From the NCBI GenBank assembly GCA_021521415.1, contig JAIQDT010003863.1, positions 229,749 to 293,748 on the forward strand: a stretch of DNA of 64,000 nucleotides. The letters run 5' to 3'. This document shows, one piece after another, positions 11,521 to 64,000 of this stretch (its first letter is position 1; each line of letters starts with the position of its first letter). Source of the stretch: Bidens hawaiensis (taxonomy: Eukaryota; Streptophyta; Magnoliopsida; Asterales; Asteraceae). Under the pieces are notes generated by a model, which was given only the letters and a program-made list of their open reading frames with translations, ran no database searches and had not been told where the DNA came from. A program made the translations under genes and the position numbers.

Positions 11521-14024
11521 GGGACGAGTGGAAATGTCAAATTACAACCTAAACACCAGACAAGGCCCGGTGGGACGAGAGCTGCTATGTTTGTATATGG
11601 TATTGTAACCTAGTACATATGCTAATGTTGGAATGAATCTTACAGGCGTTAACAGTTTTTTTGTTTGTTATTGACCGTTTCGACATTCGTGTGTGGATTT
11701 ATGCAGTTATGATGGGGCTTGAAAACATGGCATTCATTTCAATGGCAGTCAGCTTGGTAACATACTTCTATGGTTATATGAACTTTAGTTTGACCAAGTC
11801 AGCCACGACCCTAACTAACTTTTCGGGGACCGCATATCTACTATCACTATTTGGAGGGTTTATTTCCGACACCTACTTGTCAAGATTCAAGACTTGCATC
11901 CTATTCGCTTCTTTTGAAGTCGTGGTTCGTTACATAAAACACAAAATAATAATTATTTTTCTTATGCAACATTTACAATGTATTTAATTGAACATGACGT
12001 AACTAATGTATAAACTCAGGGTTATGCACTTCTAGCAGTCCAAGCACACTTCCAACAGTTAAGACCGGTTCCCTGTAATGCCAGCCTAGGAAATCAATGT
12101 GAGCCAGCAGAAAGCAGGCAAGAGGCGATACTATTCACGGGTCTGTATTTAATTGCATTTGGAACAAGTGGAATTAAAGCGGCTCTGCCTTCATTAGGAG
12201 CAGACCAATTTGATGAAAGTAACCCGAATGAGGTGAAATCACTTGCAAGTTACTTTAACTGGCTTATGTTTAGCATCACAACCGGAGCTATATTTGGTGT
12301 AACGTTTGTTGTGTGGATCAGCTCCAACCGAGGTTGGGATTGGGGATTCGGTGTGTGTTCTGTGTCTGTCCTAGTATCAGCTCTTTTTCTACTTATGGGG
12401 AAATCCATGTATAGAAATTATGTACCTAAAGGAAGCCCGATTACTAGAATTCTACAGGTATAATTAAGAATTAAGTTCGATTTTCGTACATGTGGATTGA
12501 CCATTTTAACTAGTTCAGTTCAAAACTGAAACCTTCAACTCTTTTGAGTTGTTATGGCTTCACTTTTTGACCATTTCGTCCTTGACACCATAGATTTTTC
12601 TGTTAGATAAAAGGTTGTTTTAGACCAAAAATACTATTTCTGTACAATGACAGAAATACCCTTCTACTTAACAGAAAAATCTTACAGTGTGTGCACATAA
12701 CTGAAATAGTTACAAACGATTCATTTTCGAATGAAATAAGTTAAAAAAATGAAATCATTGTGACTTACTGACTTAAAGGGTTGAAGGTTTCAATTTTAGC
12801 CTGAATTAGTAGTGAATTAGATAAAACTGTCAAACCACTGGGACGAAACTGAACTCAAGTCTATAATTGATAATACACTTAACGTCACACCAAAAGATTA
12901 ATCGTAAAACATAGATTAACAAAATGCATATTATTGGTTTCAGGTATTCGTGGTGGCTATTAAAAACCGAAATTTACCAGTACCCGAGAGGACACAGGAG
13001 TTGCATGAGATTCATGACAAAGAATCTGGTACATCAACGGATATCCTACAAAAAACAGATCAATTCAGGTAGGTATTACATTATTTCTGACTATTTGTAA
13101 CTTTTAAATGCTAATTGTCAAATGTTGTATCTTATGGCTGCTAATACTTTAATTAATGTCAGATATCTGGATAGGGCAGCGGTTGTTAGAAGTGAAATCG
13201 ATGCTTCTGAATTGACACCATCGGGATCATGGAAACTGTGTACCGTAACACAAGTTGAAGAAACCAAAATATTAATCCGCATGCTGCCGATAATAATAAG
13301 CACTATATTCATGAACACATGTTTGGCTCAACTGCAAACCTTCACCATCCAACAAAGTACAACCATGGACAGAAACCTTCATGGTTTTAAGGTTCCCGGT
13401 CCCTCAGTCCCAGTAATTCCACTATTGTTCATGTCTATTCTAATCCCACTTTATGACCGAATCTTCGTGCCATTGGCCAGAAGATTCACTAAGATTCCAA
13501 CAGGAATCACACACCTCCAAAGGATTGGAGTAGGATTAGTTCTCTCAGCCATTTCAATGGCGGTGGCGGGAATTGTGGAAACGCACCGGAAATCAGTGGC
13601 AGTTGAGAATAACATGGTTGATTCCCCAGGACCGTTGCCACTCACGGTTTTCTGGCTCGGTTTCCAATATGCTATTTTTGGAGTGGCTGATATGTTTACA
13701 TTAGTAGGGTTGTTAGAGTTTTTCTATGAAGAGAGTTCGTCAGGAATGAAGTCACTCGGGACAGCTATCGCATGGTGTTCATTGGCTTTTGGATACTACA
13801 CGAGCTCAATAGTGGTGGAGGTGGTTAACAAAGTGAGTAACGGGTGGTTAGCTAGTAACAATTTGAATAGAGATAAGTTAAATTATTTCTATTGGTTATT
13901 AGCAATATTAAGTTTAGTGAATCTAGGGTTTTATTTGATGTGTGCTTCTTGGTATAAATATAAAAAGGTGGGTAGTAATGGTGATGACACAAGTGAAGGA
14001 AAGATTCATACGTCTATTGCATAG
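11521..14024 (+). CDS. NRT1/PTR family (NPF, probably NPF4) transporter
   Basis: Five exons seen: 11521-11599, 11707-11924, 12020-12457, 12944-13068 and 13163-14024. All have GT-AG introns and the phases join, giving 573 residues plus a short missing first exon (family length about 560-620). The protein begins in the RPGGTRAAMFVYVMMGLENM region of helix 1. Then come FGGFISDTYLSRFKTC, the loop Cys-rich segment before LFTGLYLIAFGTSGIKAALP, ADQFDESNP, FNWLMFSITTGAIFGVTFVV, the central cytoplasmic loop, and the C-terminal bundle from TVTQVEETKILIRMLPII through NRDKLNYFYWLLAILSLVN. NPF proteins are proton-coupled importers of nitrate, peptides or hormones in the plasma membrane; NPF4 members include abscisic acid transporters. 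The helix 1 ExxER proton-coupling motif is absent (GLENMAF instead), as in NPF4.6. The substrate cannot be told from sequence. AATAAA lies at 14112. No breaks were seen. Confidence 0.88.
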
Positions 14025-19878: not shown

Positions 19879-20650
19879 TAGGGCTGTTCAAAAAGCTCGC
19901 GGCTCGTGGTTCGCTCGAAAAAAGCTCAGCTCGAAAAAAGCTCGAACAAAAACGTCTCGGCTCGGCTCGGTTTCGAAACGAGCCGAGCCCGAGCCATGGT
20001 CGGCTTGGCTCGTGGCTCGGTGGTTATATATATATATATATATAACTAATAATGTATATATATGTATATATTAATTTTCATATATTTATCTCCTATATAT
20101 GGACTTGATTTGGACATTTATCTATTTGGCTGAACCTTTTTTGCATATGGTTTATTAAATTAAATATTACTCCATCCGTACCATTATAAGTATCTTAGTT
20201 TGATTTTTCAAGTCTTTCTTGTTTAACTTTGACCGACAATATTTTTGTTTGTGTTATATAATACTTGATGTAAAATATATGAATGGATTGGGTTTTAAAT
20301 GTATTTTACATTGATATAATTTTCGTCAAGTATTTTATGACACGAACAAAAATATTACGGTAAAGGTTGCAAAAGAAAAACTTGAAAAGTCAAACTATGA
20401 CACTTATAATGGGACGGAGGAAGTATATGTTAAGTTAAGTTATTAAGCTTAAAAATTGCAATATTTTTTTTGTATTTCGAGCCAATTCGAAATCGAGCCG
20501 AGCTGGCTCGTTTTAAAACCGAGTCGAACTCGAGCTCAGGTTTTCAGCTCGATTTAGATTTCGAGCTCGAGCCGAGCCAACTGGATCAAAATTCGAGCCG
20601 AGCCCGAGCCAGCTCTGGTTCGAGCTCAGTTCGGCTCGTGAACACCCCAA
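19879..20650. mobile_element. hAT-like MITE made of GAGCTCG-type palindromes
   Basis: A 772-bp element inserted in the Harbinger element. The target duplication is GTATTGAG (19871-19878) and GTATGGAG (20651-20658). The inverted ends are TAGGGCTGTTC and, complemented from the right, TTGGGGTGTTC. The arms are packed with CGAGCTCG, GGCTCG and CGAGCC. It is itself split by a Stowaway element and carries a TA microsatellite at about 20026-20042. Confidence 0.88.
20170..20423. mobile_element. Stowaway (Tc1/mariner-type) MITE
   Basis: A 254-bp element flanked by TA (20168-20169 and 20424-20425). The ends are CTCCATCCGTACCATTATAA and, complemented from the right, CTTCCTCCGTCCCATTATAA, which is the classic Stowaway CTCCCTCCGTCCC end. 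It lies inside the hAT MITE and is the innermost insertion. Confidence 0.92.
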
Positions 20651-25321: not shown

Positions 25322-25449
25322 TGTTGATAACTAGCGTATATTTATATGTTTCCGTATATGTTTAGTGTAGCGTATATGTTTGCTTGTCTATAAATACTAG
25401 TTTGTAATCACGTTTACATTCGAATGAGAATCATGATTAGAATTTTACA
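25322..25449 (+). repeat. TRIM left LTR
   Basis: 128 bp, TG...CA, containing repeated GCGTATATG-type words and TATAAATACTAG, a possible TATA box. Confidence 0.9.
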
Positions 25450-26402: not shown

Positions 26403-26534
26403 TGTTGATAACTAGCGTATATGTATATGTTCCCGTATATGTTTAGCATAGCGTATATGTTTGCTTGTCTATAAATACTAGTTAATTTGTAATCACATTT
26501 ACATTCAAATGAGAATCATGATTTAAATTTTACA
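26403..26534 (+). repeat. TRIM right LTR
   Basis: 132 bp, TG...CA, with a handful of differences from the left LTR including one 4-bp indel. This points to a moderately old insertion. Confidence 0.9.
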
Positions 26535-26734
26535 ATATTAGACTTTAATGATCCTTTGAAGAGGATAAGACGAAATTGACCGACTTCTCTTACGCTCCTC
26601 TTCATTCTCCCGAATATACGAGACCCAATCCATCCAACTCCCAATGGGTCTTAATTAAGCCCAACTCCAACTGTACGTCGACTTAACCCAAACTGAGACA
26701 TGTCAGTAGCAATCCTTTTAGCGCACAATTAATT

Positions 26735-27068
26735 GATTTTTTTTTTGAAAGAGGGGCCAAAATACAAGGGTAAATCACAAGGGGGGCTGGAATTATTTTT
26801 TTTTTCAAAAGAGGGGTTACCTCCATTCGTAATGGCGGGGAGTTTTATACGTGATAGGGTGTCAGGTGAGTGTCAGGTACAAGGTTATGCCCTCCATTTG
26901 TAATGGCGGTGAGTTTGAAAAAGTGGTCTCCCCTCCATTTGTAATGGCGTGGACTGCAAAAAGGTACTCCCCTCCTTTTGTAATGGCGGGCAGTATGAAA
27001 AAGGTATCTCCCCTCCATTTGTAACGGAGGGGAGTCTAAAATAAACGTTGGGAACACACTTCCTTTTA
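26735..27068 (+). repeat. MULE left terminal inverted repeat with sub-repeats
   Basis: Pairs with 31199-31531. It holds five imperfect sub-repeats of about 44 bp from roughly 26820 to 27040, each with a CCTCCATTTGTAATGGCG-type core. Open frames through it are repeat by-products. Confidence 0.88.
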
Positions 27069-27278
27069 ATATACACACTCAGTTTCAGATACACTTCAAT
27101 TAACACAATATTTATTGATCCACCATCCCACCTAACCTCAACCATAAAATTGAAGACAATTCATCAGATTACACAACTCAACTAATCAATAAGATTTTGT
27201 AAGGTTTTTCACACTTCAAGATTTTCATTTTCTCTTCCAATTTTCACTCCTATATTTCCCGCCAAATTACATATAAAT

Positions 27279-29695
27279 ATGGAAAGACATTTTACTTCCG
27301 GACCTTTGGAAGACGACTTGTTGTTTTTAAGTGGTAACCACAGAGCAGATTACGTGTTTCAACAACCAAAAGACGTACCGAAAAGCGGGTTTTTAAGAGT
27401 TAGACGCGGTGATGAAAAATTATGGGGTTACATTCATAGAAATCCAATTACGGAGAACGTGTTGCATTATATTCGTATGGCCGGTTTCGCTGGTGTATTG
27501 GAGTGTGACCACCGTAGGATTGACAATGCTCTAATATCAGCACTCGTTGAAAGATGGCGGCCAGAAACACACACATTTCACATGCCATTTGGGGAGGTAA
27601 CAGTAACCTTACAAGATGTAGAAGTTTTGTGTGGTTTGCGGGTTGACGGTAATGCCGTATGTGGTAATGATCATCACTGGAACGTTGAAGAAATCCAGGA
27701 ATCTTTTTTTTCTTTAACCGGTATTCGACTAGAAAATGGTACGGGCATAAGTGGGCAAAAAATAAATATGCCTTTTATTCTAAAATGTTTAATGGTAGTA
27801 CAATTTCCAGAAAATCCATCAGAATTACAATGTCTCCAGCAAGCAAGAACGATTATAATTCTTTTAATTGGTGGTCAACTATTTCCTGAAAATTCAAGCA
27901 ACTGGGTGCATGTTAAATATTTAAATCACCTACAAGATTTAGCTGCATGCGGCGAGCTTAGCTGGGGTAGCGTTGTTTTATCTTGTTTATATAGAAGTCT
28001 TTGTAAAGCCACCAATATTAATACGAATGAGATTGCCGATGGAGTTTTTTTGTTGCAGTTATAGGCATGGGAAAGATTTCCTAGCACAGCTCCAAAACAG
28101 TTACGCCAAACTGATTGGAATAAACCATTAGCTTCACGGTATGCGTTATATTTTTGTATATTGTTGTAGAAAAATATATGAAAAAATTACAAAGTGTTAT
28201 TAATATAATTTAGTTGTTTAAATAATTTTTTTTCCAAAGATGGCAAGGTCCTTTGACGTTTCTTGAAGCTTCATCACACGTACTTAGTGCCTACCGTTCG
28301 GAGTTCAATTCTTATTCGGAGTTTCAATTCATGTGGAAGCCATACGATGATGACCTTCATAGACTTCCCCAAATTTGTAGAAATGGTGAACAATGTTGGA
28401 GGAGTGAGACGTATCTCATTTGTTGGGAAATTGTCGAACCCCATATTCCTAGTAGGGTTTTGAGATAATTTGGCATGTTTCAACCAATCCCTATGAATAC
28501 ACTTTTGAATGTTGATGAACATAAGAAACTCCACAACATTAGTCGTGCGGGTGGTCGGAGTGGCGACTGGTTAAACGAACATCAAAAGTATATTAACTCA
28601 TGGATGGCTCGTAATCACACGACTGTCACTCAAGTTGAGTGGACTTCGGTCGCTGCGAGCCCAGAGTACATGCAGTGGTTTAAGTCTCATACAGTTTTAT
28701 ACACGGCTAATCCGACACGTAGTTACCAAAACCCGCGAGAGTATCCAAATGATGGGGGGAGGGTTATGATGTTGGTATGTGAAAATTTGTTAATATTTAA
28801 TTTATTAATTTCTTTTAAATTGCATGCTATTAATTTATATATTTAAATAATAAATATAATACTAAGTTAAATGCAGATGGAAGGATTGAGCCAGGTGCAT
28901 CAAACGTCAAATGAAAATCCAGTGAGAGAGTTGGTCGGTCATTACATGGGGTACGCTAGCTTAGGTGATCATATGAGTTATTATCCGACTCATGAGACCC
29001 AAAATATTGGTCGTCAGGTGCTCCCTATCCCCCAACGAATCCGGAGAAGACATGTAAGGGGTCGTGGAGTTAATGTAGAGCAACCGAACCCGGGGGAGCA
29101 AATGAGTGGCATATCTACGAGTCATATAAGCAGCCCACATACGAGTCGTATGAGCAGCCCACATACGAGTCATATGAGCAGCCCACTGCATACGAGTCAT
29201 ATGGGCAGCCCACATGTGAGTTGTATGAGCAGCCCGCATCTTAGTCTATCCCAAAGTAATCCGCTCGGGCAGTCTTCACAATTAATTATGGCAAGTTATG
29301 ATATGTTTTCCTCGCCATTTGACCTTGACGATATGCAAATAGGGGGGTCTTCAACAAACTTTATCCCATCGATTCAACAAGATTTTTTAAGTCCTTTACT
29401 CCAAATGCCCTTCTACCCCAACGTGGATACCTCATCAGGGTTTAGGTTTCATCAAAACCAAAATACAAGACCAACCAGGCCACAAGTTGTAGATGGCAGA
29501 GACATAAATTTTGACTTAAACAAGGAGGGCGGGGTTGAAGATGAAGACGAGGATGATGAAGATGACGATGACAATGAAGATGTAGCCTTGACCGGTTCCC
29601 TCCCCTTAGCTAAACGAAAAGGCAAACGGCCAAATGCAGGCGTTAATAATAAATGGTGTGGCACTCATGAAGGAAACAAGCATATACATGATTAA
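27279..29695 (+). pseudogene. Plant mobile domain (PMD/MAIN-like) gene, two stops
   Basis: Three exons: 27279-28138, 28240-28774 and 28877-29695, with GT-AG joints in frame, about 737 codons. Exon 1 shows the PMD in order: HIRMAGFAGVLECDHRRIDN, ALISALVERWRPETHTFHMP, FGEVTVTLQDVEVLCGLRVD, later SWGSVVLSCLYRSLC and ADGVFLLQL-stop-AWERFP. Exon 2 continues FQFMWKPYDDDL and EPHIPSRVLR-stop-FGMFQPIP. Stops at 28062-28064 and 28466-28468 sit where the family has Trp and Gln, both explained by single C-to-T or G-to-A changes. Exon 3 is a low-complexity tail: repeats of SSPHTSHM, the acidic run EDEDEDDEDDDDNED, and the basic run AKRKGKRP that could be a nuclear signal. Cellular PMD proteins (MAIN, MAIL1) act in silencing and genome stability in the nucleus. 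In transposons the role is unknown. The frame is otherwise remarkably open. Confidence 0.88.
29104..29250 (+). repeat. In-frame 21- to 24-bp tandem repeats in the PMD tail
   Basis: Six or so units reading S-S-P-H-T-S-H-M with small changes; one unit has an extra Leu-His. The units are in frame with the PMD reading. Confidence 0.85.
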
Positions 29696-29874
29696 TTACA
29701 TATAAACGAACTTGTGGTTTTATGCTAAGTATTATTGTGTAATTTTTGTTTTTAGGAATGTAACCTTTGTAATATTATTTAAAAAAAATTGCTTGCAAAA
29801 TCTCAAACCCAACTTTGCTCGATTAATGATAAAGTTACATTAAAAAATTAAAAAGGAAGTACATTGAAAAAGAG

Positions 29875-30803
29875 TTAACACATAACATTATAGTCACCGG
29901 TATAATGACCGACAAGCGTTCCTTTTATGACCCACTTGTTTACATATTCCACATCTAAATGTTCTAGGTTGGTCTTGATGTCGAACTCCATCTCGTTATG
30001 AATTCTTCTTGACTTCCTTCTACCACGTGATGTGGTAAGTTTTGATGTGTCTTCTTTAATTCTCCAACTCGGGTCTGTCCAATAATCAGGGTGAGCTAAT
30101 GGGAAAAACTCACCATCATATTGTGCTTTGTAGGCACCAATTGTGTAAAATTGATTAATAATGCTATCGAGAGAATCACCACTATTATGACAAACCGCGA
30201 TAGCATGTGAGCAAGGAAATCTTTCCATTTGCCACTTACCACATGTGCAATTTTTTTAAGGTACTCAACGGTGTAATCGTTTCCACCGGTTGAGTTTGGT
30301 TGTATATTTGTAGAGTTATATTGTGTAATAAATTCATGAACGATTTCATCATCATCGTCTGTGGTTTCTACCGATGACGGATCTGGTTCTGATTCTTCAT
30401 CACTGGCTTGCTCAACATCTGATTCGGATTCAGATTCAAATTCAAAGTCAACATCGGCGTTAGCCATGTCATGAACGTTGGAAGATGGGCCGGCTTCAAG
30501 TTCATGTGGGTTCATAAACCCATTATAAGAATGAGCTGTTTGTTGGGGGGGCTCATACACAGAAGAAAAACCACGCATGAGATCCATACAACTGGATTGT
30601 GTGAATGGCACCATTGGCTCAATATGAGCGTAAATGTTAGGGTGAAAGTTACCCTCGTTGACCGCTAAAAAATACAACACTTCGAGACTAGGGTCGCTAA
30701 ATATTTCGGATGATTGAGAATAGCCTAGATGAGTATAATATAACTTCAATTTTAAACTGTAAAATTCTTTTTGAACCTTAAGATGGAGATAAATCAAATC
30801 CAA
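29875..30803 (-). pseudogene. mudrA-type transposase remnant, catalytic core lost
   Basis: Minus strand, convergent with the PMD gene. The 5' part (from 30803) reads LEVLYFLAVNEGNFHPNIYA and later acidic text (FEFESESESDVEQASDEES, TTDDDDEIVHEF), the N-terminal region of MULE transposases. It then jumps to NDYTVEYLKK. After a frame change comes the SWIM zinc finger CTCGKWQMERFPCSHAIAVC (C-x-C...C-x-H, about 30255-30200), followed by the usual tail with YKAQYDGEFFPLAHPDYW and RGRRKSRRIHNEM. The several-hundred-residue DDE region normally between these parts is absent, and the frame changes just before the finger. It cannot be active. Confidence 0.88.
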
Positions 30804-31198
30804 AAATTCAACATATGAAAGTTTTTATTGAATAATAACGGTAGTGTTTCTAGTATAATTATCACACGAAATAACTCCGTTTTCGTATGATACCTCACCA
30901 CCCCAAAATAGCTGAACAAAAAACGGAGAAAACATTTTTGGTTTTGGTTATGATCTAAAAAAATATGTGATTGCTGGCTTTGGAGGAAAATAAACAAAGC
31001 ATGTAGGTTGCTGGCTTTGGAGGAAAATAATCAAAGAACAAAAATTATGAGATGGTTGTGATGGTATGGTTGTCCAAAGCATGTAAATATATAGATTAAA
31101 TGTTGGATGAAGGTTGGTGCATGCAGAAAATATTTAATGTGCATGCAGTAAGAAATGAAACGGTTGGTATAAATAAATATGGTAGATGTCTCGATGTA

Positions 31199-31531
31199 AA
31201 TGTGCTTTAAAAGGAACTGTACTTTATTTTAGACTCCCCTCCATTACAAATGGAGGGGAGATACCTTTTTCATACTGCCCGCCATTACAAAAGGAGGGGA
31301 GTACCTTTTTGCAGTCCACGCCATTACAAATGGAGGGGAGACCACTTTTTCAAACTCACCGCCATTACAAATGGAGGGCATAACCTCGTACCTGACACTC
31401 ACCTGACACCCCTATCATGTATAAAACTCCCCGCCATTACAAATGGAGGTGACCCCTCTTTTGAAAAAAAAATAATTCCAGCCCCCCTTGTGATTTACCC
31501 TTGTATTTTGGCCCCTCTTTAAAAAAAAATC
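31199..31531 (-). repeat. MULE right terminal inverted repeat with sub-repeats
   Basis: Inverted copy of 26735-27068 with the same five sub-repeats. The two ends differ by scattered substitutions and small indels, for example in the T-run near the tip. Confidence 0.88.
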
Positions 31532-31540
31532 CAATTAATT

Positions 31541-45732: not shown

Positions 45733-45735
<3 letters not shown>

Positions 45736-45784
<49 letters not shown>

Positions 45785-46128
45785 GTACTAAGTAGGGTCT
45801 GAGGTGGGTAAGTTGTAGACAGCCTTACCTCTACCCTTTAGGAATAGAGAGGCTGCTTCCGGTGAGACCTCCGGCTCGATAGTAGTTTTGCATCAAGCCT
45901 TTGATATAAGACACATAACACACAACCATCGGAACACCGCCAATTGGTGCATGTACCCTTGTCTTTGATATCAACGCCACCACATGATGCCTGATTAACC
46001 TTCCGCCACTTTTAGCGTTATTTTCACGAGATTAGTAAAATAACGTCAAAATTAGTGCAATTTCACTTTTGCCCACCCGAGGGTTCACACATATATACAT
46101 TATATGCCACACACTGCAAGCATGACAA
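45736..46128 (-). mobile_element. SINE, about 393 bp, with ATG-repeat tail
   Basis: A perfect 15-bp target duplication CATTGGTGTAAGGTT flanks it (45721-45735 and 46129-46143). On the minus strand it ends in an (ATG)n tail (45736-45784). Just before the tail it contains the plant SINE text GAGCCGGAGGTCTC, GGAAGCAGCCTCTCTA, GGGTAGAGGTAAGGCTG and CCACCTCAGACCC. No protein is encoded. I know this 3' region from plant SINEs, but the 5' half is unfamiliar and may be a second module. Confidence 0.82.
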
Positions 46129-47357: not shown

Positions 47358-47543
47358 TGTTGTAAAACAAGCCTAATAGCCAAATATGTGAGAAAGAGAT
47401 GTAGGGAGAAAGATGGAGATTTCATTAATATGGTGTGTATTACAATAAGATACAATGATATGTATATATAGGAAAAGATAACTTGGAGAATAAGCCTAAT
47501 CTATATTAGGTATTGATAACCATAATAATATATATTTATAACA
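47358..47543 (-). repeat. Copia 3' LTR (left)
   Basis: 186 bp. On the plus strand it starts TGTTGTAAAACAAGCC and ends TTTATAACA. Confidence 0.9.
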
Positions 47544-52785: not shown

Positions 52786-52971
52786 TGTTGTAAAACAAGC
52801 CTAATAGCAAAATATGTGAGAAAGAGATATAGGAAGAAAGATGGAGATTTCATTAATATGGTGTGTATTACAATAAGATACAATGATATGTATATATAGG
52901 AAAATATAACTTAGAGAATAAGGCTAATGTATATTAGGTATTGATAATCATAATAATATATATTTATAACA
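52786..52971 (-). repeat. Copia 5' LTR (right)
   Basis: 186 bp with about 4 percent difference from the left LTR, so the insertion is of moderate age. Confidence 0.9.
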
Positions 52972-57377: not shown

Positions 57378-57387
57378 CTATATATAC
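57378..57387 (+). promoter_or_regulatory. TATA box of the CYP82 pseudogene
   Basis: CTATATATAC 63 bases before the former start codon, conserved with the intact copy. Confidence 0.65.
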
Positions 57388-58711
57388 TCTGGATTAGGGC
57401 CGCTATTAATTGTATAACACTCGCATAGTTCTCTTTGCATACAGAAGGCATGGAGTTCCATACTATGCTCTCATTTTCAACAGCTTTAACGTCCATTCTT
57501 ATTGTCTTTGTAACAGCTTTCCTGTTGCGCATCTTGAGGGGAAAGCAAGTGAAGACCCCACCGGCACCTCGAGCGAAGGGTGCACTGCCTATAATAGGCC
57601 ACATGCATCACCTAGGTGGATCTAAGATAACACATCATGTTTTAGGTGACATGTCAGAAAAGTATGGTCCTGTCTTTACCATCAAGCTTGGTGTTCACCA
57701 GGCTTTGGTTGTGAGTAGCGGGGCGGTAGCTAAAGAGTGCCTTACCACAAACGACAAGGCCTTTGCAACTCGACCCAAATCAAAGGCAGTAGAGTTCATG
57801 ACCTATAACTATGGCGCGTTCCCCCTTGCTCTCTATGGGGATTACTGGAGACAAGTTCGCAAGATCATTATGCATGAGGTTCTCTCTCATACTAGAGTCG
57901 AGATGCTTGGACATGTTCGAGTTTCAGAACTTAGAGCATCCGCAAAGGATATCTACAAGACGTGGCGTATGAACAAAGACAACGAAGGTTCAGATATGGT
58001 AAAGATGGACATGCAACAATTGTTTGGGAACTTGGTAATTAACCTTCTTATGAGGGTTGTATCGAGGCATAGGCTCCACTACAAGGATGCAGAAGCAGTA
58101 CGATTTCAGAATGTGGTAAAGAAATTCTTTAAGTTATTCACCACATTTGTCGCAGCAGATTTCCTTCCCTTTACGAATGGTTTCGACCTAGGAGGATATG
58201 AGAAAGAAATGAAGATGGTAGGTACTGAAATTGACGATATCGTTGAAGGATGGTTAAGGAGGTGAAAGGAAGAGAGGGAGTCTAGCTCAACACAACAAGA
58301 AGGTGACCAACACTTCATGGATGTGCTGATTTCTACTGTTCAAGATGCCGCTGAAGACGATTTTCCAGGATTTGACCATGATACAGTTATCAAAGCAACA
58401 AGTCTGGTAATTAATTACTTTATCACTGATTTCTTATAAGTTCACGCCATGTAGCTTATAGTCAAATCCAATAACACTAGCTGTAATTTCAAATCTGCAG
58501 GGACTTATAATTGCTGGCTCGGACACCACATATGTGACTTTAACATGGGCTTTCGCCTTGCTACTTAATAACCGACGCGCATTAAAAGCTGTCCAAGATG
58601 AAATTGATAAACATGTTGGACGAGATAGACTGGTGGAGGAGTCAGACTTGAAGAACTTAGTTTACCTCGACGCCGTTATCAAAGAAACAATGTGTTTGCA
58701 CCCAGCCGGAC

Positions 58712-59027
58712 TAATGGAATTGGTACCAGGTATTGAACACTCAGACTCGTTAATTTGGCTAACACCCAAACACGAATATTATTATTGAGAAACTTCACAA
58801 AACTCAATTACCTGATTACTGATACAATCTCTAAACCCCAAAGCACGGGTATTTATAATCTAACATATCACGTTTAGACTACAACTAGGATTGCTAAATA
58901 ATAGGATATAATAATTATACTAATAATTAAATCTAAGCACACTTAATTATCTATAATTATCCACTCCTTAAATCTCGTTACTTAACCTTGCACGCCAAGT
59001 AATGGCCTTTAACCGAAATTCCCAACA
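58712..59027 (-). repeat. Copia 3' LTR (left)
   Basis: 316 bp, highly similar to the right LTR with only a few scattered substitutions and 1-bp indels, so the insertion is young. Confidence 0.92.
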
Positions 59028-61935
59028 ATCACCCCCGGATTTCGAACTCGAAACCGACAAGTCTTCAACTCCAAGTAATTCTCGCATCTCCTTGAATTTG
59101 ATTCTCCCAAGAGCCTTCGTCAAGATATCGGCACATTGCTTAACACCACTAACATGCTCGACACTTACTTCTTCACGATCAACACATTCTCGAATGTAGT
59201 GAAACCGAGATTTGATGTGTTTGGTCCTTCCATGGAAAACCGGATTCTTCACGAGTGCTATTGCTGATGTATTATCGATACGTAACACCACTGCTTGAAT
59301 TTCATTGTCGAATAACTCACTTATCAAGTCTCTTAGCCAAACCGCCTGACACGCGGCTTCGCTTGCCGCCATGTACTCTGCTTCACACGATGAGAGTGCA
59401 ACCGGACATTGTTTCTGAGAACACCAAGTAATTGGTGAAGACCCAAGATAAAACACGTGCCCCGTAGTGCTTCTGCCATCGTCTTGGTCAATGTTATGGC
59501 TACTATCACTATAACCAACTAACACGTTTTTCCCACGAGTGTAAGAAATACCAAAACCGAGAGTACCTTGAATATAACGAAGAATTTGCTTTATAAGAGT
59601 TGCATGAGATTGCTTCGGGGTTTGCATGTACCGGCTTACGACTCCGACCGAATACGCCAAGTCGGGACGAGTTTGCAATAGGTACCGGAGACACCCGACA
59701 ATCTTTCGGTATCTCGTAGCATCAAAATCTTCTTCTTTTAACTCGCCATGTAGGAACGCGGATTTGACATCAAGGTGATGCAATTCCCAACCTCCATTTG
59801 CTGCGAGAGATATTAATAAACGAACCATTTTGAGTCTAGCCGCTGGTGCGAAAACCTCGTCAAAATTGACTTAGGTTGAATGCCTCACCGCTTCACCCCA
59901 CATATAATACAGAACTTGTCTCGCTTTTAATATGCTCCGAGTCATATCCAATATCGTGCGGTTCCGCATTTCGACAACACCGTTTTGTTGAGGTGTATAT
60001 GGAGCGGTAAAATGCCGAATAAAACCCTCGTTTTCAGAGAACCGATTGAATTCACGAGAAGTAAATTCTCCCCCTCGATCGGTTCGAAACGTTTTAATTT
60101 TCTCACTATTTTCCGCTTCCACCATGACTTTAAATCGCTTGAAGGTATCAAATGCTTCACTTTTTTCCTTCAACAGAAATGTCCACATGAAACGAGAAAA
60201 ATCATCTATCAAGACGAACACGTATCTATTTCTGGCTATGGTACTAGGAGTAATGGGCCCGCATAAGTCCCCATGGATTAGTTCCAAGGCTCGGGTTGCT
60301 CTAAAAGTCGCCGACTTCGGAACGGTTTCCTCGTTTGCTTCCCGACTAAGCACGAGTCACAAATTTGATTTTCTTGATCAACTTTTGGCATTCCAATGAC
60401 CATATTATTATTCACCATTTGTTTCATAGACTCGAAATTTAGGTGTCCTAATCTCGTGTGCCAAAGCCAATTCTCATTATCAATCCGGGCTTGTAAACAC
60501 ACGGGTTTCCCCGTCTTTAACTTAATCGTATAAAGACGATTCTTGGATCGAGTAACCCTCATCAACAATTTTCCTTGATCATCATACATTAACAAGTAAT
60601 CGTCTTTCATACGAATATCACAACCACTTTCTGTTGCTTGCCCAAGACTAATAATATTACTTTGTAAACTAGGAATATAATAAATGTCGGTCAATAATTG
60701 TTGCTCCCCCGTTTTACCGACTAGCAATATCGACTCTTTCCCGCAAATATCCACATAAGACCCATCTCCAAATTTAACTTTTCCACCAACACGCTTATTT
60801 AACTCAGAGAAAAAAGATAAATTACCCGTCATATGGTTGCTCGCATCGTTATCCAAATACCACAAGTCTTGTTCGTTCGAACCACCCCCGTAATCTTTTG
60901 GTATAACCTTCTGTTCATTCAAGTACACTTTTCTTGAACACACTGCACCATATAGAGGGACGAGTCTTTTTCTTTTGCGTCGGCCAAATGTGCTTGTCTT
61001 TCTTTCCTTCGTAACGGACACCTCGAAACGAAGTGACCAAATTCATTACAACGAAAGCATTGAACTTCCGAGTAATCCTTTTTACCCTTTCGTTTATCCC
61101 CTTCGTTGGACCCTCCTTGTGAACCACGGTTCTGACTCCCACGTCCACCACCACGTCCTCGATTCGAACCTTTCCCGCGCCCCCCTACTCGATTCGCGTG
61201 AAAACTGCTTCGAACTCGAAGAGGATTCAGAATTATTAAACAAAAGTTTACCTTCTTCAGAACGCAACACGTGTCCTTTGATACGCTCCTCATAGGTCTT
61301 TAACCTCCCGACAACATCCTCAAAACCAACTGTTTTAAGGTCTAACACTTGCTCGAGGGATGCTACAGCTTGGATAAACCGGCTCGGCAGGCTTGCGAAG
61401 AATTTCTGGACTAGCTTCCTTTCTTCATACGGTTTTCCAAGTGTGGCTGCTTTAGAAGAGATCGCGGTTATTCTCGAGGCATACTCGTCAATGGTTTCGG
61501 TTCTTTCATCATCAAACCATCAAATTCACGTATTAACTTATGAAGTCTAGCATCCTTCACACGTTCCGCGCCCATATTTCTTGACTTTATGGCATCCCAC
61601 ATCTCTCTTTCCAATTTAAAATTACCGATTTGAAGTATCTGTTCCTCGGGAATCGACTGAAACAGAAGCGCCTTCGCGATGTTATTTTGCTTCGCATCAT
61701 TAGAGCCCGAGTCAATCACATCCCAAACTCCATGAATCCCAAAAATAACCTCCATATGCATACTCCAAATCGTGTAGTTTGTTTTCGTCAAACGCGGACA
61801 CTGAAACGACCCGGAGATCGTCTCTTTTCCCGTTTGGTTCGCGTCACCCATCTTGGTTTTACGACTATAAGTCTTTGAAAAATCCTTTGACCTCGATTTA
61901 ATGATTTCAACACGTGATTTAGTTTTTATGCGCAA
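58968..61935 (-). pseudogene. Copia gag-pol, deleted and frameshifted
   Basis: Reading on the minus strand: gag starts near 61860 (SGSFQCPRLTKTNYTIWSMH) and has a frame change near 61470. The CCHC knuckle CFRCNEFGHFVSRC is at about 61055-61015. Then come the protease-like site WYLDNDASNHMTG, where the family usually has D-T-G or D-S-G, the pre-integrase WHTRLGHLNF, and the integrase core with HGDLCGP, LIDDFSRF and FRTDRGGEF. A deletion at about 59870 joins integrase to the start of reverse transcriptase (VFAPAARLKMVRLL, DVKSAFLHGELKEE). A second deletion removes the YVDD catalytic region and joins directly to RKIVGCLRYLLQTRPDLAY and RNase H (SSCEAEYMAASEAACQAVWL, KHIKSRFHYIRE). The copy is non-autonomous. 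Confidence 0.9.
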
Positions 61936-62689
61936 CCAAAACCACCAAAGTTTTCAATTTGAATAAAGATTTATTCAAATACTTTTACAACCAAAACCCT
62001 TTAAACAAATTTGACAAAAAGTAATTCTGTCAATTGTTTAATAATAACACCAAGCCACCAACTTGGCTCAAAGTTCACGTGAAAAGTGAAAGAGCTCAAC
62101 CTTGATTGTTGTGCCACTTTACAAAACACTACCACAAAACAAGTTCTTTCAACCACCACCAAACACGATTTAATTCGTTGAACACCAAATTTCTTTTTGA
62201 TATTATTTTCTTTTGCAGACCAGATTGAATTAATTCAATCTTCAAACCGATCGAACTCTCCAAATCAGAACTCAGGTTATCACTGTTCTGATTACCTGAA
62301 CGAACCTTCGATAATGCAGGTTTCTGATAACCGGACAAAGTTCCCTCACGTCGCGGGCTTTGATTCCGGTGGCAGGTACACATTGATCGTTGATTGCAGA
62401 CCGTAGATTGCTGGCGATTCCGTTGATCGATTGCTGCTGCTTCCACCTCACGTCACAGGTTTGGATGCCGCTACTGCCGAATCGATTGAACGCCGGTGGG
62501 AGTTCCCTCATGTCACAGGCTACTATCACTGCTCGGAATTTCCCTCACGTCACGGGTTACTCCGGCTAATGACTGCAGATGCCGAAGAGACTGTCGACCT
62601 CAAACCACCGTTGTTCACTGATCGGAACTTCCTCACACCACGATTCGGATCTATTAACACAGGTCCTTCTCGAATGCTCTGATACCAAT

Positions 62690-63007
62690 TAATGGAATTG
62701 GTACTAGGTATTGAACACTCAGACTCGTTAATTTTGGCTAACACCCAAACACGAATATTATTATTGAGAAACTTCACAAAACTCAATTACCTGATTACTG
62801 TTACAATCTCTAAACCCCAAACCACGGGTATTTATAATCTAACCTATCACGTTTAGACTACAACTAGGATTGCTAAATAATAGGATATAATAATTATACT
62901 AATAATTAAATCTAAGCGCACTTAATTATCTATAATTATTCACTCCTTAAATCTCGTTACTTAACCTTGCACGCCAAGTAACGGCCTTTAAACCGAAATT
63001 CCCAACA
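62690..63007 (-). repeat. Copia 5' LTR (right)
   Basis: 318 bp. The stretch between it and gag (61940-62675) is untranslated leader with repeated CCCTCACGTCAC and TTCCCTCA words. Confidence 0.92.
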
Positions 63008-63263
63008 CGGACCGCTCTCCATTCCTCGTGAGTCTATGGAGGATTGCACTGTGAGTGGCTACAACATCCCAAAAGGCACACGTTTGTTTGTAAATATTTG
63101 GAAAATCCATCGTGATCCAAATATATGGACAGATCCGTTAGAATTTAAACCAGAAAGATTCTTGACAACTCACAAGGATATTGATCTTAAAGGAAAAAGT
63201 TTTGAACTGCTTCCCTTTGGTAGTGGCAGAAGAATATGCCCTGGTATTTTCTTTGTCTTAAAG

Positions 63264-64000
63264 TTTTTGAACTGCTTCCCTTTGTATGGCTACGTATTTT
63301 AGTATACTTGAATTTGCTTGGGAGTTTTCACAAAATATGTGTGGGGAACAATGAATATGCCAAAGAAGCTGATCGTGTGCTTCAATTAAGAACGAAGTGT
63401 ACTGATCGTGTAAAGCGATCAAGATCAAGCTTGGAAAGTCAATCGTGCGAGATGGTCAGAGAAACGGTGAAAGATATTTATGTGATACGAATTCAAAGCA
63501 ATCTGGGTGATCAAAATGGTTCCGGAAGAGATCGATTGAGGGATTCTAAAACAGATCTCTTTGATCCACAAACAGCTTTTAAAACAGATCTCATATTTTT
63601 TCCAATAATTTCTTATTTTATTTTCCAACCACAATCTATTTATGTACTAGAGTAGAGAATGGGTGAATGAATCATCACCGGCCACATTTTTGTTAGAGAT
63701 TGATTTTCATTCTCTCTCTCGTCCATACTAGAGAATAAAAATGTGTGTGTGTATGGTGAGTGAATTGGTATTGGAATGGAAATAATGACTTTTCGGTTAA
63801 CATTGATTGTTGGATTGGTAATAACGAATGGGTGTGCTTGGGTTAGTTTTGACCCAAACAACCATATCGAAATATCGGATCGCTTGGTTAAGTCAGTTTT
63901 GGTTTTAAATGTCACAGTGGCCAGTGGGTCGATTCACTTTATATCTAAAGGCTTAAAAATAAAGTTGAAACCAGTTGTGTCAACAATTTTTAGCCACTTC
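63264..64000. other. Sequence replacing the P450 3' end
   Basis: Starts with a short copy of nearby P450 sequence (63264-63284), then unrelated DNA. A frame at 63236-63655 runs through the joint and has no recognisable domain beyond the P450 part. A GT run lies near 63742. Confidence 0.5.

Follow-up and report, generated by a model that had tools for sequence, protein, structure and literature searches.

Why does a transposon carry a plant mobile domain (PMD) gene beside its transposase gene, and what might the encoded protein do? The question is raised by a Mutator-like element (MULE) at positions 26735..31531 of a 64-kb stretch of Bidens hawaiensis DNA, the whole of which was analysed and is called the window below. 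The element is almost certainly a degenerate, non-autonomous member of a plant MULE type with two genes, a mudrA-type transposase and a convergent PMD gene. Several angiosperm MULE groups with this gene arrangement are already on record, and the element class itself is known. In intact MULEs the transposase moves the element; the PMD, reportedly first described by Babu et al. in 2006, is the partner in question. VANC21, a DNA-binding protein of an Arabidopsis transposon, reverses silencing by the host, and predicted structures incline us, by a little, to the view that the PMD of this MULE class works in a VANC-like manner. The overall explanation, a decayed two-gene MULE whose PMD was originally VANC-like, appears probable.

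The anatomy of the element and its decay can be read directly from the window. The features are listed below; P numbers denote the 250 proteins fetched for the pairing analysis, among which P0121-P0250 are the 130 transposase-list proteins.

26726..26734, left copy of the target site duplication, CAATTAATT, directly abutting the inverted end
26735..27045, plus strand, left terminal inverted repeat (TIR), 311 bp
26890..27035, plus strand, left-TIR array with units of ~41 bp; a further copy at 26820 makes five CCTCCATTTGTAATGG-like motifs
27279..28138, plus strand, PMD exon 1, 95% identical to P0001
28062..28064, plus strand, in-frame stop in PMD exon 1, a coding residue in P0001
28240..28774, plus strand, PMD exon 2
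28466..28468, plus strand, in-frame stop in PMD exon 2, a coding residue in P0001
28877..29695, plus strand, PMD exon 3, encoding the variable C-terminal part, which has an acidic stretch; no Pfam match above the cut-off
29116..29239, plus strand, 24-bp tandem repeat (five copies) in PMD exon 3, encoding an 8-residue peptide repeat
29906..30935, minus strand, mudrA remnant, convergent with the PMD gene
29906..29986, minus strand, C-terminal zinc knuckle after a second frame change, 81% to P0121 over 27 aa
29986..30255, minus strand, SWIM zinc finger and downstream part in a shifted frame, Pfam SWIM E 3.8e-08
30300..30311, minus strand, internal-deletion junction; the N-side follows P0141 and the C-side follows P0129/P0121
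30300..30935, minus strand, mudrA N-terminal part, 59% to P0121 over 218 columns, no Pfam match above the cut-off
30825-30827, minus strand, mudrA stop codon
31223..31531, minus strand, right TIR, 309 bp
31233-31378 plus 31434, minus strand, right-TIR array of the same motif, five CCTCCATTTGTAATGG-like motifs
31532..31540, right copy of the target site duplication, CAATTAATT, directly abutting the inverted end

The first-pass annotation had proposed a complete MULE, and its components are all there: a 9-bp target site duplication, within the 8-11 bp of MULEs, long TIRs (311/309 bp) and a mudrA-type coding sequence with SWIM and the family N-terminus. Its element limits and 9-bp duplication were exact, and the inverted ends are present, although their length, given as 330 bp, was slightly overstated. 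The two TIRs are identical in 302 of 312 alignment columns, with 6 mismatches and 4 gap columns. Copies of the CCTCCATTTGTAATGG-like motif are spaced by 39-41 bp, with one exception of 71-72 bp, in either TIR. With up to two mismatches allowed, all 10 copies in the window lie inside the element and none in the remaining 59 kb. No second copy of the element was found in the window by blastn, whose one other hit was low-complexity sequence near 45735-45785 (36-47 bases). A direct repeat (25322-25449 and 26403-26534, 91% over 132 columns) lies close by, its second copy stopping ~200 bp left of the MULE.

The three-exon PMD gene convergent with mudrA was likewise borne out, by its exons, its GT..AG introns of 101 and 102 bp and the Pfam PMD matches of the first two open pieces (E 3.6e-41 and 4.2e-13). 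The coding length over the three exons is 737 codons, in which the two point nonsense changes claimed earlier are indeed found. P0001, a Bidens hawaiensis protein, is 95% identical to the window PMD over 398 aa and has the identical exon 1/2 join. For exon 3, none of the matches listed was as close as P0001, and this exon aligns with Mikania P0002/P0003.

The mudrA-type gene keeps its N-terminus and SWIM finger and lacks the DDE core, as had been claimed; in addition, it contains a stop codon and two frame changes, at about 30255 and 29986, which may have arisen before or after the internal deletion. The SWIM part is 70-73% identical to P0121, P0122, P0123 and P0129, and the N-terminal part is 95% identical to the Bidens sister protein P0141 over 56 residues. 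Beyond the P0141-like part, the sequence passes straight to the stretch preceding SWIM. Relative to P0123, ~490 codons are deleted, including the MULE/DDE domain (P0123 454-553) and the region that matches the MuDR DNA-binding family PF03108 in 10 of the 130 relatives. Because the two sides share two residues at the join, a deletion by short homology is plausible. The DDE region was not found in the window by tblastn with eight relatives (E ≤ 1e-3), of which only N- and C-terminal parts matched, and PF10551 (DDE) had no match in the window, compared to 109 of the 130 transposase-list relatives (72/88 and 37/42). The element is filed only as a non-autonomous derivative because the DDE transposase domain is absent, and the window copy can hardly act now because both genes are broken.

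A copy without the transposase core could suggest that PMD is a mere passenger, in the manner of a Pack-MULE that picked up a host gene on one occasion. The pair recurs, however, in other Asteraceae and in other asterid families. In Mikania, P0010 (PMD, E3N88_33987) and P0123 (an 843-aa transposase, E3N88_33988) have adjacent locus tags on contigs of equal length. This is the only adjacent pair between 17 Mikania transposase tags and 27 PMD tags among the matches listed (120 of 360), and ~0.02 such pairs are expected by chance, taking ~46,000 tags from the largest tag seen. Furthermore, nine of the 250 fetched proteins combine PMD with this transposase at E ≤ 1e-4: Mikania P0004 (47 transposase residues only), Cinchona P0032 (N-terminal 100 only), Centaurea P0085 and P0164, Apium P0102, Helianthus P0130, Oldenlandia P0192, Erythranthe P0218 and Paulownia P0250. 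PMD comes first in four of them and the transposase in five. Since most are automatic one-strand gene models, they indicate neighbourhood and not proven fusion. Centaurea solstitialis P0164 (OSB04_012793, PMD plus transposase) lies two locus tags from another PMD protein, P0022 (OSB04_012795). Pfam at E ≤ 0.001 detected PMD in 4 of the 130 transposase-list proteins; the non-transposase families besides PMD were kinase, DUF4283 and zf-CCHC_4, with one protein each. In the PMD tree, the window falls in an eight-row clade (support 100/100) with a transposase-linked row in each half. The eight transposase-linked rows among all 43 are scattered (6 changes, compared to a shuffled mean of 6.8), and rows without a link label may still be transposase-linked.

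The literature points the same way. Table 1 of PMC6446971 records PMD for MULE groups 42 and 45-50; in the MUDR group it stands 'in antisense for most of them'. Ikeda 2017 (PMC5418596) reported PMD-transposase fusions in grasses and Amborella and inferred two captures, and Nicolau 2020 (PMC7156037) termed the eudicot PMD-C mainly genic. The window element shares a 9-bp target site duplication, long TIRs and a SWIM transposase with the PMD-carrying groups of PMC6446971, MUDR and MUDRAVI2 in particular, and its PMD is antisense to the transposase, as is often the case in those groups; it differs in that both genes are broken and the DDE region is gone. PMD accompanies this transposase repeatedly. 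Because of this recurrence a one-off capture is disfavoured, and a passenger PMD seems very improbable.

If PMD is a regular component, what might it do? Predicted PMD models matched the fold of VANC21 (9lnj, a structure with bound target DNA) over the full domain in a Foldseek search, and in this respect the models, as predictions, agree with the VANC family. DUF1985 appeared only below threshold (17 of 75 PMD proteins at E ≤ 0.05); the window PMD is not filed as VANC because DUF1985 stays below the Pfam cut-off. PMD exon 1 had no match among PDB sequences at E ≤ 1, and the viral fold library held no PMD match below E 0.001. Viral contigs contained no exact match to six peptide patterns of Mikania PMD P0003, to six of transposase P0123 or to one 32-base TIR pattern. 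DUF7745 matched 4 of the 75 PMD proteins at E ≤ 0.05 (best 0.00055) and may belong with PMD and DUF1985.

The parent element of VANC21, VANDAL21/Hiun of Arabidopsis, resembles the window element as a MULE with a transposase and one or more further genes. Besides the predicted fold, the two have in common non-coding tandem motifs and a tandem peptide repeat in the extra protein. However, VANDAL21 has three genes (VANA, VANB and VANC), as opposed to two recognised here, and VANDAL elements have no or degenerate TIRs compared to 311/309 bp in the window, which sets this element apart from them; some relatives within the VANDAL group do carry TIRs (PMC6446971). The published VANC21 and VANC6 motifs were not enriched, with 1/4 and 0/4 of their window occurrences inside the element. 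A separate observation concerns Mikania micrantha P0039 (E3N88_26431), in which PMD is joined to an Ulp1 protease domain. VANC genes with an Ulp1 domain (KIU) are known in Arabidopsis (PMC13317346), and P0039 forms a second parallel of PMD with VANC.

The molecular role of PMD is described as unknown, and an anti-silencing role of transposon PMD has already been speculated upon (PMC5418596, PMC8616336). The earlier suggestion that PMD shields the element from silencing thus gains support from the predicted VANC21 fold match, but the idea itself was already in print. No paper linking PMD and VANC by homology was found in a search that left out preprints, most subscription journals and the 9lnj paper, and such a link may be in print. 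A VANC-like PMD would recognise DNA by sequence: it would attach to the short motifs repeated in the non-coding ends of its own element, and it would counteract host silencing. The candidate target is the reiterated CCTCCATTTGTAATGG, with five copies per TIR.

Two other functions must be taken seriously. PMD could be a transposition accessory like maize mudrB, acting in integration or with the transposase at the TIRs, and have no silencing role. In maize MuDR (mudrA/mudrB), two convergent genes also lie between long TIRs, the difference being that the second gene here is PMD. mudrB is apparently required for integration (PMC6446971), the repeated motifs sit in the TIRs, where the transposase acts, and DNA binding by a VANC-like fold would be equally useful. 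Since the sole close fold match is an anti-silencing protein, we regard this accessory role as unlikely. Alternatively, the element PMD might serve as a decoy or partner of the host's MAIN/MAIL1-PP7L pathway and disturb it in that way, with no binding of element DNA. Cellular MAIN/MAIL1 are described as sharing the plant mobile domain and act in silencing (PMC5418596, PMC7156037), and a review suggests PMDs of transposable elements (TEs) as a counter-silencing strategy (PMC8616336). MAIN and MAIL1 differ from the window PMD as host genes needed for TE silencing (PMC5418596). The VANC21 structure that the models match contains its target DNA, and interference of this kind is quite unlikely.

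Several points weigh against a VANC-like PMD paired with this transposase. For 16 of the 17 transposase tags from Mikania, no PMD tag among the matches listed is adjacent. In the chimeric models both parts lie on the same strand, as opposed to the convergent genes of the window element, and some may be annotation errors. PMD and transposase distances correlate weakly (rho 0.37, permutation p 0.117, nominal 0.029) across 35 comparable pairs from 11 linked pairs, a comparison confounded by species relationships and unequal segments. The Foldseek superposition is loose (TM 0.45/0.51 and rmsd 6.5 for the first model) and looser still for the second (TM 0.26/0.44, rmsd 5.8); the two models are not independent, because the second shares 37 of its 50 underlying rows with the first. 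The match covers the overall fold, with DNA-contacting residues outside the comparison, and a shared fold proves no function. In addition, four of ten inspected proteins lacked even a sub-threshold DUF1985 match, and a profile search of PDB sequences missed 9lnj (3 matches at E ≤ 10, best 0.084). The motif array is no pointer to PMD, because the long TIRs of any MULE are expected to carry repeated transposase-binding motifs. Cellular MAIN/MAIL1 PMD proteins are needed for silencing, an effect of opposite sign (PMC5418596).

The first-pass annotation had also attached meaning to a PMD that kept a nearly open frame once the transposase had gone, and this argument did not hold. PMD carries 2 disablements in 737 codons and the residual mudrA 3 in ~343 (Fisher p 0.33, or 0.085 with the deletion counted as a fourth mudrA disablement), and the losses in the two genes could have come in either order. 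By outgroup majority, the 18 differences between the window PMD and P0001 divide into 9 on the window side, 8 on the P0001 side and 1 tie, with few outgroup letters behind some assignments and two P0001-side changes where the P0001 gene model departs from the family sequence. The pattern looks like neutral decay because two of the nine window-side changes since the split from P0001 are stops, and in both copies decay appears unconstrained. A near-open PMD as a sign of selection was rejected on the disablement rates and these two stops.

Elsewhere in the window, we found a POT/PTR2 transporter gene in two open pieces (12014-14021) and a cytochrome P450 gene (42215-43963) with a 95% identical duplicate at 57378-63269, which is interrupted by a Copia-type element with 97% identical long terminal repeats (58712-59027 and 62690-63007). 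A 284-bp segment (20155-20438) matches its own reverse complement at 78% and is perhaps a hairpin-type or MITE-like repeat. A 186-bp direct repeat (47358-47543 and 52786-52971) is 96% identical.

A wider proposal, which we advance tentatively and with more doubt than belief, is that PMD and VANC belong to a single family as two of its branches. On this view the antisense PMDs common in angiosperm MULEs would be an ancient and widespread means of countering silencing that recognises tandem motifs in the elements' ends, and MAIN/MAIL1 would have a domain of this kind that acts in the opposite direction. The full-domain match to a solved anti-silencing protein-DNA complex offers a concrete and cheap test, namely whether PMD binds the TIR motif, and raises the question of whether MAIN and MAIL1 bind DNA in a like manner. 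With the predicted fold, a puzzling family of plant proteins acquires a role that can be put to the test.
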